This document shows, in pieces, positions 4,281 through 13,212 of a DNA stretch of 20,599 nucleotides (the stretch's first letter is position 1; each line of letters starts with the position of its first letter). The notes below the pieces were generated by a model. That model worked only from the letters and a program-made list of their open reading frames with translations. It made no database searches and was not told where the DNA came from. A program made the position numbers and the translations under genes. This DNA is from Candidatus Fermentibacterota bacterium (GTDB taxonomy: Bacteria; JAFGKV01), in NCBI GenBank assembly GCA_030620115.1, contig JAUXFG010000064.1, positions 1-20,599 of the forward strand, given 5' to 3'.

Positions 4281-4366
4281 GACCGCATCAAGAAGTCCAC
4301 CGGCATGATCGTTCTTCTCAGCCCTTGCGCGTAAGAATCGTTTGATTGGCCACGGGAGAGAATGGC
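4281..4366. other. Intergenic gap between radical SAM gene and SGNH gene
   Basis: About 86 bases separate the tightly coupled glycan operon from the next gene. I see no U-tract terminator. A weak inverted pair (AAGAA near 4291 and TTCTT near 4313) is too short to call. The following gene may be in the same transcript or have its own promoter. Confidence 0.5.
4354..4360 (+). promoter_or_regulatory. Ribosome binding site GGGAGAG fixing the GTG start at 4367
   Basis: A GGGAGAG sits six bases before the GTG at 4367. It lies downstream of the alternative TTG at 4346, so it supports the later GTG start, which also puts the hydrophobic anchor at the very N-terminus of the protein. Confidence 0.65.
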
Positions 4367-5557
4367 GTGACAAGAATCACCCGCATTCTATTGTTTATCG
4401 GATCACTGGTTGCGGCCTTTTTCTTGGCTGAGATCGGGGCCCGGATCTACATGTCTGTTATTGGGAGCTCAGAGGAGTACACATGGGAAGCGGCCTCTAG
4501 GTGGCGGGGTATCCACAGGCTTTCAGACAATCCCGATCTCCTCTATGACCTTGAGCCGAGTTCCCAGATCGCCGTGGATTACGGGAGAATGGGCACGGTC
4601 AGATACCACATCTCAAGCCAAGGAATGCGTGATAATGAGTACGCAATCCCCAAGCCCGAGGGAGTGGTACGAATCCTGGTGCTGGGGGACTCGGTGACAT
4701 TCGGGTATTACGTTCCTGTAGAATCGACTTTCGTGGAATTGACGAAAAATTGTCTCGCCTCGCAGTTCCAGAAGGTTGAGATCTTGAACGCCGGCGTTGG
4801 TGGATACAATACGCATAACGAAATTGCGTGGTTTATGGAACATGGCCTCCGCCTTGAGCCGGATATTATTGTTCTCGCCTTTTGTCCCAATGATGTGGAT
4901 AACCCCTACTTTCACTTCGCATGGCACACTCTTGATAAGTTGGGATCTCTCCCGCTCCAACTGCTTCCAGACCCGTCGACTATGGTTGGCACTAGACCGG
5001 AAACGCCTTCGGGACTTGTTGTCTCTCTCGGCAGGAGGTTCAAGGTGGTGTTCCTGATTCAGCAGAGACTGAGGATTCTCCGGAATGCTCTGGACGAAAG
5101 CGCGGCGCGAAAAAGCGGAGAAGAGGCTGAGAAAGCGCTCGCCCAATTACCGTTTGGAGACTGCCTGCTCTCTCTCTGCGAGGAGGGATCTCCCCGTATC
5201 TCGTGGCTTGACAATGAATTGACCTTACTAGATTCGCTGGCAGCTTATCACAGGTTTAGATGGGGGCTTCTCGTCCTCCCGGTGAGCTATCAGAGGCCCG
5301 AAGCTCCGGGGCTTTGCGCAAGACAGGCACTCGAAGATTTGGCTGCGGACCACCGGATTCCATTCATGAATCCTTTGGAGACGCCCCCCGCCTCGTTTGC
5401 GGGCCTGTTCCTGGATGTCACTCATCTCAGCCCGGCCGGGCATAGGTGGATCGCGGAGACGTTATGTCGAGAACTAGAATTTCTGATTGCGCGCGAGGTA
5501 GATGGATCGCCAATGGATAACAGCATACCAATTCCCGTAGAAGGGAGTGGATGGTGA
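4367..5557 (+). CDS. Membrane-anchored SGNH-hydrolase-fold protein
   Basis: Protein of 396 residues with one N-terminal membrane anchor (about 7-21, ending FFLAE) and a periplasmic SGNH/GDSL-type domain. The four blocks are visible: LVLGDSVTFG with the nucleophile S109, GVGGYNTHNE (block II glycine), CPNDVD with N175 for the oxyanion hole, and DVTHLSPAGH with D350 and H353. A complete triad suggests a real esterase or acyltransferase, most plausibly removing or adding acyl groups on glycan. A middle insertion (about 185-300) is not recognised. The start is the GTG at 4367. The 3' end overlaps the next gene by seven bases, so the two are coupled. It is a paralogue of the protein at 8477-9655, with the same anchor style and the GDSxTFG and GVGG motifs. 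The exact substrate is unknown. Confidence 0.88.
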   Translation: MTRITRILLFIGSLVAAFFLAEIGARIYMSVIGSSEEYTWEAASRWRGIHRLSDNPDLLYDLEPSSQIAVDYGRMGTVRYHISSQGMRDNEYAIPKPEGVVRILVLGDSVTFGYYVPVESTFVELTKNCLASQFQKVEILNAGVGGYNTHNEIAWFMEHGLRLEPDIIVLAFCPNDVDNPYFHFAWHTLDKLGSLPLQLLPDPSTMVGTRPETPSGLVVSLGRRFKVVFLIQQRLRILRNALDESAARKSGEEAEKALAQLPFGDCLLSLCEEGSPRISWLDNELTLLDSLAAYHRFRWGLLVLPVSYQRPEAPGLCARQALEDLAADHRIPFMNPLETPPASFAGLFLDVTHLSPAGHRWIAETLCRELEFLIAREVDGSPMDNSIPIPVEGSGW

Positions 5558-8142
5558 CGCCCCCAATATTTACTGCGCTTGCGGCAATCGCCTGTCTTGT
5601 CTTCAATCCACAAGCAGAGCTCGGGAGCATCATGCCCACAGGGAACTCTATTACAGAGGGTGACTATTCCAGTGATTGGTTGGGATTCAGAAGGCCGCTC
5701 TATGAGCTTCTTGTAGCCCAAGGTCACGATTTCACCTTTGTAGGAGACACCATCGGTGATGCCGGAGATGAGCGCTACCCCGGTCATTTCCGTGGTGGAA
5801 GCAGGATCGAGGAGTTCTACCCGCCTGGTTTTGGAAACGGATGGGGAACCGGGAGTTTTGATATCGGCCCGGTATTGCGCGACCTCCACCCCGATATTAT
5901 CCTTATTCACCTTGGTACAAACAACATGCCACAGCAGACAACCCCACTTGGCCCCTACTCGTTTGACGGGGGCGCAACGCTTCACGAATCGTATGCCGGC
6001 TATATGGCAGAGCTGCTCATGTACATTGTTGAGCAATATGACGGCTATCCTTCGGAAACGCCGCTGATTGTGCTCTCACTGATCATTCCTATGAGGGGCA
6101 TTGTTGCCCGGGTCGCACAGTACAACGGGTATCTGGAGGAGTTGGCTCTCGATATGGCATACGGGCAGGTCACGGGCGACCCTCTACACGTAGTGACCTG
6201 TGATCACTTCACCCCGTTCATCGAGAACCCGCTCCTGTTCACCGGCGAGCCGGGAGACTACATGTTTGATGCTGCTCATCCCAATGATCTCGGATATTCC
6301 GTGATGGCGGAGACATATCTCAGTTCCCTCATGGATGAGACACCACCCGCCCCGGTCACCGATCTTACGGTTTGGGGGCAAGGAGCTCATAACGCGAAGC
6401 TCTGGTGGACTGCATCAGGAGACGACATTCTGAGTGGAACGGCCTCAGTGGTAGAGTTCAGGTTCTTCCGCGATCCTATTCTAGATGAACAGCTCTTCTC
6501 TCAAAGCTGGGAACTTGTTCCGCACATGGAGTCGATTCCGGGAGGATCCGTCCAACAACTCATCGCTGGTGGCCTGGCGGGAGGCGAGGAGTACTGGTTC
6601 GCCTTGAAGATCGTCGATGATGCGGGGAATGTGTCGGAGATCTCCAACTCTCCTTCCGTACGGATTTCCCTTTGCGACAGCCTCGTCGAGGAGTTCGACG
6701 AAGAGCCTCTTCCTTCCGTATGGGCTTTGGGTCCCCACTATTTCGTGGACAACGGCATGCTGAAACCGGCCAACCCACAACCAATATGGCTTCCGCCGGC
6801 AGTCTTTGTGGGAGAAAGCTCTCCCTGGGAGAGTGAGCTGGAGCTGCCGGTCGTCTGTCCTCCGGGCGAGACGAATCTTGCGGGATTGGTGGTGGCCGCC
6901 GATGCCCCGGACCAGGCGGTTGATGGGTATGTCGTTTTCTATGAGGACGGCATTGTGCGGCTAAGAATTCTCGAATCAGGCGTCTTGGGCGCGGTCATCG
7001 ACACCGCAACTTCGCGGTATGGTCAATTGGCGCCGGGAGATCGGCTGGGAGTATTGCCTTTCGATTTCAAAGGAGAGCTCCTCATTCGGGTCATGAGGAA
7101 CGGCTCACCGGACCGAGTCCTGGATACCGGAGCGCCGGTTTTCCAGATTCCTACTCCTCGTTACGCGGGCGTCATCATGCGTGGTGGGCTTGGCTGGGGG
7201 ATCGAGCGTTTCAGGCTGGGAGGCCCCGGACTCTGGGAAGCGCCGCAGCCGTTCCATCTCCTCAGTCCGGACTCAGGCGCGGTGGTGGAAGATCCTCCTC
7301 TTTTGACCTGGGATCAGAGCTCCGATCCGGACCCTTGGGATGCCATCTCTTATTCAGTCATCTGGTCGACTCTTCCGGGTTTCCCGGTCGAGGATACATA
7401 TGAGATTCTCTGCGAGAGTGACACATCGCATGCATTTCCCTCCGATGAGTTCATTCAAGGAGAGACGTATTACTGGCGTGTGAGAGCCACGGATTCAATG
7501 GGCCTGGAAACGCTTTCTATAGAGCAGGATTGGTGTTTTACGGCTTCCACTAACCACTCCCCATCCGCATTTGCGCTCATCTATCCTGCGCATGGGGAGA
7601 GTATCACAACCAGATCGCCTGTTCTGCTCTGGAGCAGCTCAACTGATCCCGATGATGATGCGATAACCTACACCGTTGCCGCGGATCTCGATTCGACCTT
7701 GCTGAATCCCTCTGTCTTGGTTGAAGGCGTGACTGATACGTTCGTTCAGGTGGGGCCGCTCCCATCCAGCGGACCGTGGTACTGGACGGTAGTTGCGCGG
7801 GATGAGGAAGGCGCAGCCGCGTATGCCGATACAGGGATGTTCTTCATCGAAGGTTCGAAATCCCCACCGCCCGTGCCCTCCCGCGTGGTGGTCTTCCCTC
7901 CCGCGCCCAATCCGACCTCAGGGAGGGTGGTACTGAGGATGAGTCTCATCGAATGCAGCATCGTCAGGCTCGAGCTCTTCGACACGGGAGGCAGGTCGGT
8001 GGCGTTCCGAAGCGAAACGTACGGTCCCGGAGAGCAGTCCGTCTCCTGGGCGATTCCTGATCGAGTTCCGGACGGCGCCTATCTGCTAAGGGTTGCCATC
8101 AATGATAGACCGTACAGGGCTTTCCTCACAGTGAAGAGATGA
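5551..8142 (+). CDS. Secreted multidomain SGNH/GDSL-type protein with C-terminal FlgD-like sorting domain
   Basis: Protein of 863 residues. The N-terminal SGNH domain (about 26-260) has MPTGNSITEG (S33; the usual Asp is Asn), LGTNNM (N124) and DAAHPNDLGY (D240, H243), so the Ser-Asp-His set is present. It is followed by an FN3-like domain (about 263-375, opening TPPAPVTDLTV), a beta-sandwich region resembling a LamG/concanavalin fold (about 378-560), two more FN3/Ig-like modules (about 566-668 and 669-768), and a C-terminal FlgD-like module (about 775-863) with PPAPNPTSG, LFDTGGRSV and DGAYLLRV. Such C-terminal modules are used for export and surface sorting in FCB-group bacteria. The signal sequence is weak: MVTPP has no positive charge, and the hydrophobic run 6-18 ends only about 15 residues before the nucleophile. 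The ATG at 5551 (or GTG at 5554) follows AAGGGAG and overlaps the upstream gene. A likely role is a surface esterase acting on acylated polysaccharide. Confidence 0.9.
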   Translation: MVTPPIFTALAAIACLVFNPQAELGSIMPTGNSITEGDYSSDWLGFRRPLYELLVAQGHDFTFVGDTIGDAGDERYPGHFRGGSRIEEFYPPGFGNGWGTGSFDIGPVLRDLHPDIILIHLGTNNMPQQTTPLGPYSFDGGATLHESYAGYMAELLMYIVEQYDGYPSETPLIVLSLIIPMRGIVARVAQYNGYLEELALDMAYGQVTGDPLHVVTCDHFTPFIENPLLFTGEPGDYMFDAAHPNDLGYSVMAETYLSSLMDETPPAPVTDLTVWGQGAHNAKLWWTASGDDILSGTASVVEFRFFRDPILDEQLFSQSWELVPHMESIPGGSVQQLIAGGLAGGEEYWFALKIVDDAGNVSEISNSPSVRISLCDSLVEEFDEEPLPSVWALGPHYFVDNGMLKPANPQPIWLPPAVFVGESSPWESELELPVVCPPGETNLAGLVVAADAPDQAVDGYVVFYEDGIVRLRILESGVLGAVIDTATSRYGQLAPGDRLGVLPFDFKGELLIRVMRNGSPDRVLDTGAPVFQIPTPRYAGVIMRGGLGWGIERFRLGGPGLWEAPQPFHLLSPDSGAVVEDPPLLTWDQSSDPDPWDAISYSVIWSTLPGFPVEDTYEILCESDTSHAFPSDEFIQGETYYWRVRATDSMGLETLSIEQDWCFTASTNHSPSAFALIYPAHGESITTRSPVLLWSSSTDPDDDAITYTVAADLDSTLLNPSVLVEGVTDTFVQVGPLPSSGPWYWTVVARDEEGAAAYADTGMFFIEGSKSPPPVPSRVVVFPPAPNPTSGRVVLRMSLIECSIVRLELFDTGGRSVAFRSETYGPGEQSVSWAIPDRVPDGAYLLRVAINDRPYRAFLTVKR

Positions 8143-8271
8143 GGCAATCCATGGCCGGGAAAGCAGTGTCGCATAACGGCCCAACAAAACAAGTAGTCGA
8201 AGGAATCCTCATGGTCTCTGGAGGGGGGTTGCTGATCTCCACATCTCTGGCCCGACCGAGGCCGTGACAGG

Positions 8272-8460
8272 CGCCACCCCGCATTTCTCACCAGATTCCT
8301 ACTGCGAGGGTCGAAATGCCCGTGTCTGCTTCGTTACGCTCCTTCGGACTCCTCGACGTATCACAGCGAATACGACTGCGGGGTCCTCGGTCGCAAGCCT
8401 CGCTGCCACAACGATCTCGACCCTCTCGCGACGAAAGCTGGTGAGAAATGCGGGGTAGCG
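8272..8460. repeat. Long imperfect palindrome (MITE-like or REP-like element)
   Basis: The outer arms 8272-8294 (CGCCACCCCGCATTTCTCACC then AG) and 8438-8460 are inverted copies matching at 22 of 23 bases. Pairing continues inward: GCGAGGGTCGAAAT near 8304-8317 matches the complement of 8415-8430 with a two-base gap, and weaker matches follow. The structure closes on a 5-bp stem CGTAT/ATACG (8357-8361, 8370-8374) with an 8-base loop, exactly at the midpoint of the outer arms. The bases CAGG occur directly before the left arm (8268-8271) and one base after the right arm (8462-8465), which might be a short target duplication or chance. There is no transposase. As RNA it would fold into a hairpin of about 190 nt just before the next ribosome site. 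A non-autonomous mobile element or dispersed palindromic repeat is the best reading. Confidence 0.75.
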
Positions 8461-8462
8461 TC

Positions 8463-8468
8463 AGGAAG
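8463..8468 (+). promoter_or_regulatory. Ribosome binding site AGGAAG for the GTG start at 8477
   Basis: AGGAAG lies eight bases before the GTG at 8477 and only two bases beyond the long palindrome, so folding of the palindrome in mRNA could influence access to it. That last point is inference. Confidence 0.55.
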
Positions 8469-8476
8469 CACGCCAC

Positions 8477-9655
8477 GTGACCAAGAATATTCTTCTCCTT
8501 CTCGTGTCGATGCTGGTTGTTTTTGTGCTGGCCGAAATGGTCCTCAGGTATCTTCTCCCTCTTCCCGTGACTGAGGAGTACAGTGATAGAACGCCAAAGG
8601 CGAAATGGTATGGATGGGCCCCTCCGTGCAATACCGAGCTTAGATCAATCAGTCCCGATGACGGCAGCGTTTCCACGTACAGAATGAATTCGCAGTGCTG
8701 GAGAGATGTGGAACATCAGTTTGAGAAACCGGATAGTGTCACGCGGCTTCTGTTTCTCGGTGACTCGAACACCTTTGGAGTCGTGCATTTCGATGACTTG
8801 TACACGCGTCAAGTGGAACGATTGCTCAGCAAAGGTGGGATGCGGGATATTGAAGTCATCAGTATTGGTGTCGGCGGCTGGGGCACGGACCATGTCTTGG
8901 AGGCATTGCTGAACGAGGGCCTGCGTTATGATCCGGATGTCGTGATCTATCAGTTTTGCGGAAACGATATTACTGACAATACCGCCTCGTTTGTGCACTA
9001 CGATAAGGTAGTCAGATATGAATTACGGGAGGGGGAACTAACACGAGTAGTACTTGGGGGGAGCAAGAGAGGCATCCGATCAAGAGTCAAAGCATTTCTG
9101 GCACCACGGGAGATCGCTCACGCCTTGAGAAGACTCCGAGGTCTTATCCATAATCTTTCCGGCGGTGTGGGCGACATCAAGTACGAAGGCAAAAGAACTA
9201 TTCATTGGTGGGAGGATTATCCCCTCGATCCGACATCCCCCTACAACTGGCGCATACCGCTCAATCAATCCCAGTACATGAGGGATGCCTGGGCGCTTTT
9301 TGATGCACTGCTTGCGCGAATCAAGGTGGTCACCGAGAACGCGGGAGCCCAATTCATTGTACTATCCGAAGAAGGAGAGCAGGGCAAGAGGCATTGGCAT
9401 CTGAGATGGAATAGAATCCTCAACGATGGGATGGGGGACTATGTGCTCTGGGAGGGGAAACGCTATCCGATTGACTGGAAGCTACCGCTGCGAAATCTGT
9501 CGGAGGTATGCCGCAGGCATCGCATTCCCCTGATTGAACCAAAAAGGGTATATGAGCGCTATGTGTACGATCCTCATCCAAATGCTGTCGGTAATCTTGC
9601 CATGGCCCAGGACATAGTTGATTTCCTGGCTGACTCAGTGTTCGTGATGTGGTGA
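8477..9655 (+). CDS. Membrane-anchored SGNH-hydrolase-fold protein (paralogue of the 4367 gene)
   Basis: Protein of 392 residues with an N-terminal membrane anchor (about 5-19, ending VFVLAE) and a periplasmic SGNH domain. Blocks: LFLGDSNTFG (S97), GVGGWGTDH, FCGNDITDN (N163) and YDPHPNAVGN (D365, H367). The acid-histidine pair is D-x-H rather than the commoner D-x-x-H, a spacing found in AlgJ/AlgX-like relatives, so an O-acetyltransferase or deacetylase role is possible. A basic middle region (about 190-240) and a tryptophan-rich stretch near 245-265 are not recognised. The start is GTG with AGGAAG upstream. It shares the anchor style and block I/II motifs with the protein at 4367-5557, so the pair probably arose by duplication. 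No MBOAT acyltransferase partner is visible in the window. Confidence 0.87.
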   Translation: MTKNILLLLVSMLVVFVLAEMVLRYLLPLPVTEEYSDRTPKAKWYGWAPPCNTELRSISPDDGSVSTYRMNSQCWRDVEHQFEKPDSVTRLLFLGDSNTFGVVHFDDLYTRQVERLLSKGGMRDIEVISIGVGGWGTDHVLEALLNEGLRYDPDVVIYQFCGNDITDNTASFVHYDKVVRYELREGELTRVVLGGSKRGIRSRVKAFLAPREIAHALRRLRGLIHNLSGGVGDIKYEGKRTIHWWEDYPLDPTSPYNWRIPLNQSQYMRDAWALFDALLARIKVVTENAGAQFIVLSEEGEQGKRHWHLRWNRILNDGMGDYVLWEGKRYPIDWKLPLRNLSEVCRRHRIPLIEPKRVYERYVYDPHPNAVGNLAMAQDIVDFLADSVFVMW

Positions 9656-9990
9656 AGCAACGCGCCAGAGCGAAAGAGTCCCAATCGTTCTCCACGGATC
9701 GATGATATAGAGGGACGAAGTGTCAGGATATATCAGGAGTTGGGCTGGACGTTGCCCGATGCGCGTGGTATTTTGACCGGCCTGTTCATGCATATGTAGG
9801 GTGAATCGAGATCTATCGCGGAATGCCGAATGGATGCCAATACTGAATACGCAACGCTGCTGCATTCTCGGAGTGGCGGAGCTCACCCTTGTCAGAACAA
9901 GGAGAGACATGCGGATAATTCCATTTCTTTAGCCGGGGCTGGTGCGGGGGCGAAGATCGCCCAGACGCTGTTTCTGAGGAGATTATCGAT
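9656..9990. other. 335-bp intergenic region, no gene seen
   Basis: No supportable coding sequence. Two small perfect hairpins are present: CCTTGT-CAGA-ACAAGG (9887-9902) and GGGCGA-AGA-TCGCCC (9948-9962). Neither is followed by a T-run, so I do not call a terminator. A TTGACC at 9773-9778 with TAGGGT 18 bases downstream is a weak promoter candidate. The next gene's ribosome site GAGGAG is at 9976-9981. Confidence 0.6.
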
Positions 9991-12900
9991 ATGAGAGTGC
10001 TCATTTACTCTTTCATTGTCAGTATCCTATTATTCATTCTCGGATGCTCAGAGGAGACCGTGACTGACCCAGACGATGGAATACGTCCGACAATCACCGA
10101 TCCCCTCTCCGGCCGAATCATTCATCGGCTGAAGCTCAGTGTCAGTGGGACGGCCGAACCAGACCGCGCGGTGGAGATTATCCTCGATGATCTGAACAAC
10201 TCTACTGTCGTATATGCTGATCATCAAGGCCATTTTGCGCTCCAGGATTTATCACTTGGTGGTCAAGGGGGTCGAGTCATCTGGGCACGGATGGCGAATG
10301 ACACATCCCTGGTGAGCCATCCCGTGGTGGTGAACGTGGATTTCTCGTGGCTCACTGCGCCACTCATCCTGTTCCCCCCCCATGAGGCCAAGATTCCAGC
10401 AACTCAGATACCAGTGAGTGGGCTGGTTCCCCCGGATGTCTCAGAGGTTGAGATCTACCGAAACGACGCACTGATCGCCACGGTGGCTGCTGAGGATGGG
10501 GCATTTTTCTGGTCCGGCTTGGATCCCGTGGGGAGCGGAAGGATATGGCTTTGGACGCGAGGACTCATTGCCGGCGGTGGGTACACCTCCTATGGGGAGA
10601 GCATATACGTGTCACTTGGTGGTGGCGAGAACCCGTCGCTCGGCGAGATACAAGGTCCGGCGCAGGATGCGATGATCTCCGCCAGTGGCGTGGTGGTGCG
10701 AGGAACCGCAATCGGGGAGCACTCGTTGGTGCTCTATATGAATGGCGGTGATACCGGGTTGCGTGCAGACCCAGTTGATGGTGACTTTGTGTTTCAGTCA
10801 TATTCCCTCTTGGAGGAAGGGCCCGCCATACTCGGGATTGCCACCATTCGAGAGCAAGAGGTAGTTGCCGAGGGGTGTGTACGGATCACCGTTGACAGGA
10901 TCGCACCGTATCCACCAACCTTTCTTAGGCCTTCTCCCGGCGAGCTATACAGATCTGGCGGGGTGGCGGTCGAAGGCGCTTCAGAGGCTGGGGCCGTTGT
11001 CCACATTTGTGTTGACGATGAGTGGGTGGATACGCTCTCGGTCTCTTCGACCGGAGCAGTCGCCTGCACTCTTTCCTTGCCCGGTGATGGACAGTATCGG
11101 CTTGCGGGGCTGACAGAGGACCTATCCGGGAATCAGAGTACGCTCTCCACCGAGTTATTGGTGGTTGTTGATCAATCCGCCCCCGCGGCTCCTAGTCTGC
11201 TTTCTCCGTCTGCGGGTGAGCTGATCATGAGCGAATCATTCTCCATATCAGGCGAAGCCGACATCGGGTCATGGCTCGAGGTCCTGCTTGATGGCGGCAT
11301 CATCGCCGCCATGGAGATCGATGGTCAGGATGCTTTCGAGCTAACGATTCCGTCACCGTCTCCCGACGGCACGCATTGTGTGTCGGTGCGGGCATCGTCT
11401 GAGCCGGGAGCCGGCTGGGTTAGAGGCGACTCGGTTGTGATATATGTGGACCTGATCGCACCGGCGGCACCGATTATCCTGTATCCGCCTGAGAGCACTC
11501 TGGTTGCCCAAGCAACCATAAGCGTCGCGGGCGCTGCCGAACCGAACGCCTCTGTCATACTTCTGGTGGATGGAGTTGGGACTTCTCCCGTAATGGCAGA
11601 TCAGCAGGGCACATGGGAAAGGCTCATCACATGCCCCAGTGTCGATGGGGCCATGGTCCTACAAGCTTCATCCACGGATAGTGCAGGGCATGCTGGGCCA
11701 ATGAGCTCGCCCTATGTGCTCATCATTGATCAAACTCCCCCCGACCTCACCATTGATGAGCCAGACCAGGGGGCGCTCCTCAACGAAAGCCCGGTCCTAA
11801 TCAAGGGGCAGGCAGAAGTGGGAGCGCTTGTGTGGATCGATGGCAGCAGTGTATCCATTGATGATCAGGGGTCATTTGAACGCTCGGTGTCCCTGTCCGA
11901 AGGAGTAGATTCGGTGATCGTGTCTGCCGCGGACGCCGCAGGCAACCGCACATCACTGCCGTTGATCGTGAGGTTGGACACCACTGCACCGTTCATTGAA
12001 TTGATCAGTCCTTCGGACAGTCTTATTACCCAGAGCACTCATGTGACAGTGGAGGGAACCACGGAGATCGGCGCCTCCGTCACCGTACAGGGGGCCCCGG
12101 TGAGCGTTGATGCCACTGGCGCCTTCAACAGCGTCGTTGGGTTGACTCACGGGTGGAACAAAATCGAGATCAGAGCAGAAGATCAGGCCGGATGGACAAC
12201 GCAGGTCACAAGAACCGTCATCGTTGATGCGGTGCCGTCGGAACCGGAGCACCTTGCGCCTACAGGAGGAGCTCTCGTTTCCACGGGTCGCCCCATTCTT
12301 TCCATGGATCCGGCCTCGGATGCCAACGGGGATGTGCTCAAGTACTCCATTGAGGTGTATGAAGACGAGGGATTGGAGAGGCTCGTGGCTTCCAGCCCCG
12401 ATCTATTCGAGTCAACCGGTGATATCGTGTGGGTCGTCCAGCCGGAGCTTTCGCTTGATGGAGCCGTCTACTACTGGAGAGGGCGCGCATTCGATGGCGT
12501 GCTCCCCGGTCCCTGGAGCGAGACGGCCAGTTTCACCATGCCTGATATTGGCTCCAGGGATCCCCATGGATTCTTTGGCTACGGCGATAGTATCACAGAG
12601 GGAGCCCAGAAGTACGGAGGAATGTGGATACCCACGGTCGGCTACAGGGAGGATCTCGAATTGGCACTTTCCGTGTTTCTGGGGGGGGCGGTGGTGGACC
12701 GAACCTACATCCCGGCAGGAGCGACTGCTGATGGAGTGGCGAATATCGAATCCGATCTGGCGGATGAGAATGAAGGATATCTACTGTTGCTTTTCGGCGT
12801 CATTGATGCCCTGAACCTCATCGATCCCCAACAGTCGGCTTCGAATATCTCCTTCATGGTCCAATATGCGAAGTCCACCTTGGGGATGATCGTGGTGGTG

Positions 12901-13212
12901 GGGACACTGCCTCCGAACCTGAATCCCGAGGTAAACGACCGAGTCATAGAATTGAACGCATTGATCGCGCAGGCGGCCCAAGAACAAGGATTTCTCTTAG
13001 CTGATCATTACTCGGCAATGGTCGAAGCCGCGATGGGTGATCTGTCGGACGTTCTCTGTGAAGATGGGACCCATCCCAGCGATCTTGGGTACTCGGTAAT
13101 GGCCGAAACTTGGTATAAGGCCATCATCGGGAGTGATGATTTTCCTCTTCCTCTCGTCGCCAAACGCGGGAGCACCGAAGAGTCCACAATCGCTACAGTC
13201 TTAGAGAGGTGA
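9991..13212 (+). CDS. Giant lipoprotein: eight Ig-like repeats, FN3-like module, C-terminal SGNH domain
   Basis: Protein of 1073 residues. The N-terminus is a lipoprotein signal with lipobox ILGC (C19, followed by SEE), so it should be lipid-anchored, probably in the outer membrane. Eight Ig-like modules of about 83-93 residues start near 31, 121, 214, 304, 396, 489, 582 and 665. Most open with a proline-rich linker such as APAAPxxLxP and carry VxGxAE. An FN3-like module follows (about 748-855). The C-terminal SGNH domain has GYGDSITEG (S867) and CEDGTHPSDLGY (D1025, H1028). Where the family has GTND it reads FGVIDAL, so the oxyanion-hole Asn is Ile938. The SGNH end resembles that of the protein at 5551 (both HPxDLGYSVMAET) but is placed at the opposite end of the chain. 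The ATG has GAGGAG nine bases upstream. The stop is four bases before the next GTG, so the two form an operon. Likely a stalked surface esterase or a glycan-binding pseudoenzyme. Confidence 0.88.
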   Translation: MRVLIYSFIVSILLFILGCSEETVTDPDDGIRPTITDPLSGRIIHRLKLSVSGTAEPDRAVEIILDDLNNSTVVYADHQGHFALQDLSLGGQGGRVIWARMANDTSLVSHPVVVNVDFSWLTAPLILFPPHEAKIPATQIPVSGLVPPDVSEVEIYRNDALIATVAAEDGAFFWSGLDPVGSGRIWLWTRGLIAGGGYTSYGESIYVSLGGGENPSLGEIQGPAQDAMISASGVVVRGTAIGEHSLVLYMNGGDTGLRADPVDGDFVFQSYSLLEEGPAILGIATIREQEVVAEGCVRITVDRIAPYPPTFLRPSPGELYRSGGVAVEGASEAGAVVHICVDDEWVDTLSVSSTGAVACTLSLPGDGQYRLAGLTEDLSGNQSTLSTELLVVVDQSAPAAPSLLSPSAGELIMSESFSISGEADIGSWLEVLLDGGIIAAMEIDGQDAFELTIPSPSPDGTHCVSVRASSEPGAGWVRGDSVVIYVDLIAPAAPIILYPPESTLVAQATISVAGAAEPNASVILLVDGVGTSPVMADQQGTWERLITCPSVDGAMVLQASSTDSAGHAGPMSSPYVLIIDQTPPDLTIDEPDQGALLNESPVLIKGQAEVGALVWIDGSSVSIDDQGSFERSVSLSEGVDSVIVSAADAAGNRTSLPLIVRLDTTAPFIELISPSDSLITQSTHVTVEGTTEIGASVTVQGAPVSVDATGAFNSVVGLTHGWNKIEIRAEDQAGWTTQVTRTVIVDAVPSEPEHLAPTGGALVSTGRPILSMDPASDANGDVLKYSIEVYEDEGLERLVASSPDLFESTGDIVWVVQPELSLDGAVYYWRGRAFDGVLPGPWSETASFTMPDIGSRDPHGFFGYGDSITEGAQKYGGMWIPTVGYREDLELALSVFLGGAVVDRTYIPAGATADGVANIESDLADENEGYLLLLFGVIDALNLIDPQQSASNISFMVQYAKSTLGMIVVVGTLPPNLNPEVNDRVIELNALIAQAAQEQGFLLADHYSAMVEAAMGDLSDVLCEDGTHPSDLGYSVMAETWYKAIIGSDDFPLPLVAKRGSTEESTIATVLER

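Follow-up and report, generated by a model that had tools for sequence, protein, structure and literature searches.

A 20,599-nucleotide stretch of a Candidatus Fermentibacterota genome, referred to here as the window, carries a large palindrome that fills the gap between two genes, and the question is whether such a symmetric fold belongs to a mobile element or to the RNA of an adjacent gene. The earlier note, made from the letters alone, proposed a non-autonomous dispersed palindromic element and, with equal weight, a structured leader RNA. Our analysis assigns the palindrome to a small, gene-less mobile element that is present in several hundred intact or broken copies.

The palindrome and its copies in the host genome

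The inverted repeat at 8272-8460 proved to be real, since both strands fold far better than shuffled sequences, with z-scores of -6.3 (plus strand) and -8.2 (minus strand) and none of 200 shuffles as stable. The folding energy is -102 kcal/mol for the minus strand and -85 kcal/mol for the plus strand. A small hairpin is centred at 8366, the midpoint, as previously described, and the outer arms, reported as 23 bases long, are indeed strongly complementary (92%), their extent here being 26 nt (8272-8297 against 8435-8460). The length of 189 bp did not hold for the element itself: alignment with other copies places its boundaries at 8278-8454, which gives 177 bp. The features are as follows.

8278-8454, minus strand (the better-folding strand, complement of TCCTCGACGTA): element proper, 177 bp; copy alignment A1 and R1 match at 8274-8458, 190 bits
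8278-8297, plus strand: left terminal inverted repeat (TIR), family consensus CCCGNACTTCTCACC...; arm pairing and genome-wide TIR matches
8435-8454, minus strand: right TIR; arm pairing and genome-wide TIR matches
8274-8277, no strand: left 4-bp target site, decayed to CCAC (family YTAR); family flank statistics and empty sites
8455-8458, no strand: right 4-bp target site, GTAG; family flank statistics and empty sites
8350-8383, minus strand: conserved central hairpin, plus-strand form TCCTCGACGTAT-loop-ATACGACTGCGG; core in at least 120 foreign loci and covariation beside the core
5551-8142, plus strand: upstream neighbour, SGNH-like secreted protein with an Ig-like domain; context only
8477-9655, plus strand: downstream neighbour, GDSL/SGNH hydrolase with a GTG start; context only

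The copy search that had been recommended for the host genome (4.10 Mb, 296 contigs) revealed a dispersed, high-copy repeat. BLAST yielded about 40 scored places with 76-91% identity from 277 candidates, and a covariance model built from 26 copies gave at least 147 matches, nearly all of them intergenic. The terminal repeat TARCCCGNANTTCTCACC had 302 + 332 = 634 matches genome-wide (2 mismatches), in comparison to a single one for the reversed-pattern control. Sampled stretches totalling 734 kb contained 46 paired elements; extrapolation to the whole genome gives some 250 paired copies, with truncated copies on top. In the element set, which includes 130 paired copies, the most frequent length is 177 bp, bounded by CCCG and CGGG; there are also forms of 38-66 bp that consist of the arms only, as well as enlarged forms combining the element with other short palindromes.

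The short palindromes TCCCGCGTCCGACGCGGGA and TCCGCCAGCTGGCGGA lie inside many element copies (L204, L211, L214, and L219) and apparently represent a nested repeat class. At L204:2262-2640 and L214:16712-17053, one element copy sits inside another, at the same position at both loci, which suggests nested insertion and possibly a duplication of the composite.

Insertion at a TA-centred site

The joined flanks of two element copies (C134 and C17) match a second dispersed repeat, about 25 uninterrupted copies of which read CAGGG-TTAY-GCCC; the site variants among the parsed ones were TTAC (9), TTAT (2), CTAC (1), and GTAC (1), with one locus counted twice. Only the C134 and C17 copies of this repeat are split, by the element, exactly at the TTAY site. 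Because the other copies, about 25 in number, are empty at that site, members of the element family must have inserted there. The second repeat itself (GCCCTGTCAGGGCTGAGGGCATTTT...), which served as the yardstick for empty sites, is present in about 26 copies (L233-L252 and C134:8370-8651).

The element flanks generally prefer YTAR. TA occurs in both flanks of 77 copies. The two NTAN sites of a copy agree fully in 22 of these, where 12.6 would be expected (p = 0.003), and 39 have the same base preceding TA in both flanks, compared with an expectation of 26.8 (p = 0.001); the same positions show no excess of complementarity. These data support a TA-centred target duplication of about 4 bp that has decayed in old copies. 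Since the target copies are decayed at both empty-site cases (GCAA/TTAG and TCAC/ATAT, against TTAY), the size within the range of 2-4 bp rests on these statistics. The flanks of the window copy, CCAC and GTAG, are among the decayed target sites. The CAGG words at 8268-8271 and 8462-8465, suggested earlier as a short target duplication, were rejected in this role: they lie outside the aligned ends and their 4-bp sites, and other copies lack them. The proposal of a non-autonomous mobile palindrome, on the other hand, is now backed by the copy number, the related empty sites, and the TA-centred duplication.

A shared core and a preferred folding strand

The exact 35-bp pattern had no match in the genome contig collection, and therefore a degenerate core pattern, TCCTCGACGTAN{4,14}TACGCCTGCGG, was used; it matched at least 120 foreign loci, in nearly all of which the core forms the centre of a palindrome, typically of 120-200 bp. 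The central hairpin TCCTCGACGTA-loop-TACGCCTGCGG occurs in at least 46 genomes from about ten phyla, with up to 64 exact copies each. The record titles include Desulfobacterota, Planctomycetota, Acidobacteriota, Nitrospirota, Aegiribacteria, Spirochaetes, Actinomycetota, Bacillota, Binatota, and Gammaproteobacteria, most records being drafts, so that a lone match from one phylum could reflect contamination; the carriers nevertheless include isolates such as Geomobilimonas luticola and Oryzomonas japonica. The exact core was present in 46 of the 48 queried genomes (45 chosen for core presence, G037, and two same-family genomes) and absent from reversed controls, and a relaxed core was found in 10 of 145 relatives spread over the domain. 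The genome G037, from another group, had 34 matches, almost all spanning the full length, and its TIR is TAGCCCGGATTATTCATGA; of the two same-family genomes (G001 and G002), one had a single weak match and the other none. Viral contigs and plasmid and phage collections gave no match. The patchy distribution of the element fits horizontal spread.

The terminal repeats differ among subfamilies, two of which are held by the host genome. The second one (G000: C11, C134, C172, C177, and C211; for example, L008:1100-1130 and L209:7897-7923) has the common core CTCGACGTAGCTTGGACTACGCCTCCG and arms resembling TTAGGGCTC...AATAACTT, the type seen in Desulfobacterota.

Within the host genome, 15 of 44 pairs show compensating changes on both sides. 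The alignment A2 joined the window copy to 51 foreign loci, 52 sequences in total; the 22 invariant core letters had served as the search pattern, so their invariance is no evidence and only the flanking covariation was considered. The pairs beside the core covary, with 164 double-change cells against 57 in shuffles and a covariation score of 0.426 against about 0.11 (0.108) in shuffled and 0.06-0.11 in slid controls. The earlier note had reserved a chance or locus-specific repeat for the case of neither copies nor covariation or conservation in relatives; copies and covariation were both found.

The complement strand (5'-CCGCAGGCGTA...TACGTCGAGGA-3') is the more stable one in 50 of 50 own and 102 of 107 foreign copies, by about 16 kcal/mol, in comparison to 22 of 59 for control DNA. 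The same bias is obtained with DNA parameters, so that folding does not separate RNA from single-stranded DNA. In addition, on the plus strand A-C exceeds G-U at 34 pairs against 12 (p = 0.0016; pairs picked only by Watson-Crick frequency). Compensatory changes keep the long hairpin intact, and it is always the same strand, minus in the case of the window copy, that is defined as the better folder.

Almost all copies (81 of 83) lie between predicted genes, in a sample that is 83% coding according to a home-made gene caller. Their distribution over tandem, divergent, and convergent gaps (46/14/10) follows the background (219/57/47), and next to tandem genes the two orientations are equally frequent (23:23). 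The polarity, taken together with this random orientation, suggests that the folded strand is important for the element itself and not for a host gene.

The best reading of these results, and one that we consider probable as a whole, is that 8278-8454 represents one old copy of a MITE-like, non-autonomous family with a structure selected in single-stranded form: gene-less, dispersed in high copy, inserted at a TA-centred 4-bp site, and almost exclusively intergenic. A transposase supplied in trans would recognise the TIRs, and insertion would take place at YTAR with a 4-bp duplication. The conserved central hairpin, which contains a bulged A and a G-A mismatch, would act single-stranded, either in a folded DNA intermediate or in the element's own RNA; a protein would bind it while the element moves, and it would not serve the neighbouring gene. 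The family would have been passed horizontally between phyla.

If the TIRs alone drove transposition, however, conservation of the centre alongside diverging ends would be unexpected. It is possible, though we find it considerably less convincing, that these elements constitute a cross-phylum mobile class moved as a folded single strand, with an enzyme that reads the polarised central hairpin, the bulged A, and the G-A mismatch and with TIRs that diversify freely; such a class would differ from both classic MITEs and REPs.

Known systems and the remaining alternatives

The MITE-like reading agrees with the short modal length, the lack of genes, the high copy number, the TIRs, and the insertion with a duplication of 2-4 bp. 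ERIC, Correia/NEMIS, RUP, and other bacterial MITEs are likewise gene-less, intergenic elements of 100-200 bp with TIRs, TA at the termini, target duplication, one long stem-loop, and tens to hundreds of copies (PMC2229807; PMC10969869). In contrast to them, our element is G+C-rich, shares its central hairpin across phyla while the terminal repeats differ, and has a consistent strand polarity, with no mobiliser identified. The resemblance to ERIC, a 127-bp enterobacterial consensus, is architectural only (PMC2229807).

The core was noted in a 2009 paper on Geobacter metallireducens as 24 "predicted short RNA elements" (PMC2700814). The central palindrome of that intergenic, multicopy family, GRCGTAGCGCTGCTACGCC, is the core seen here in Desulfobacterota elements, and related sequences were reported in Desulfotalea; the window copy has the core family in common with it and differs in loop and terminal repeats. 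The paper presents an alignment only, and terminal repeats, target duplication, empty sites, polarity, and spread beyond Deltaproteobacteria do not figure in its main text. The Chunjie MITE of Geobacter uraniireducens, compared here by description only, is intergenic and 178-235 bp long, with TIRs and direct repeats (cited in PMC10969869), and its host genus carries the core. A literature search by core letters found no description, and neither the cross-phylum family nor the mobility evidence, empty sites, polarity, or conserved-centre/variable-ends pattern was found in the searchable literature. Overall, the family is a scarcely described, widespread class of structured jumping DNA, MITE-like in architecture and behaviour.

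If this is true, one name and one structural signature would cover abundant intergenic palindromes of Desulfobacterota, Planctomycetota, Acidobacteriota, Nitrospirota, and others, which are now unannotated or labelled "predicted RNAs" genome by genome. A centre conserved instead of the ends, a fixed polarity, and a random gene orientation also raise the question of whether the element moves as a single strand and what enzyme is responsible.

The search for an autonomous partner in the host genome was negative: none of the eight DDE_Tnp_1 loci and none of the Y1 loci examined is bracketed by element TIRs. An IS630-type partner was rejected because no DDE_3 transposase gene was detected in the host genome. 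Long TIR pairs were sought in sampled stretches of the genome; two facing TIRs in L197 form a 990-bp pair that encodes a PTS-like protein and no transposase.

The core might instead be a repetitive extragenic palindrome moved as a folded single strand by a Y1 (HUH) REP-associated transposase (RAYT). REP/REPIN palindromes and their RAYT "TIRtrons" are likewise extragenic in many phyla and act as a folded single strand (PMC3733652); the hairpin described here is strand-specific with conserved mismatches, four Y1_Tnp genes exist in the host genome, and such a gene is present in 42 of the 48 genomes surveyed. We nevertheless regard this explanation as unlikely and rejected the RAYT partner, since the presence of Y1_Tnp does not track the element. 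Six carrier genomes lack Y1_Tnp, and four of them (G071, G085, G093, and G097) have at least 12 exact core copies, although these drafts may be incomplete, whereas G001 and G002 have Y1_Tnp yet almost no element. REPs are palindromes of 20-40 bp with a GTAG/CGTC tag, while our core hairpin lies inside the long stem of a five-fold longer, 177-bp element with a 4-bp TA target duplication, neither this size nor the duplication being a REP feature (PMC3733652). Finally, the one Y1_Tnp gene examined in detail (L189) has its own terminal repeats, unrelated to the element TIRs. This RAYT-type transposase (L189:700-2000) has GGGGTCAG in its repeats, which match the published TIRtron motif GGGGWSAS, and a 67-bp arms-only element copy adjoins it.

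Quasipalindrome correction by template switching during replication occurs in bacteria, and the element is a long inverted repeat, so the compensation could in principle be neutral and the fold not selected. This appears very unlikely: the mismatches should then vanish, yet the G-A mismatch and the bulged A persist in the core, and the nearly universal strand bias relative to the core is not predicted.

The least probable explanation is a cis-acting RNA of the adjacent genes (leader, attenuator, terminator, or mRNA-stability structure), for which the intergenic position, the very stable fold, the one-strand covariation, and the end just before a ribosome site in the window could be cited, but against which speak the random orientation, where a leader or terminator acting in cis should have left a bias, the occupation of divergent and convergent gaps at background frequency, the near absence from same-family genomes, the antisense position of the better-folding strand to both window genes, and the lack of any Rfam match above the curated gathering score in the window or 14 foreign loci (best weak match, E = 0.34).

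The part of the window around the palindrome (4346-13212) holds a cluster on one strand, made up of four genes for proteins like SGNH/GDSL hydrolases, some of which have Ig-like domains.
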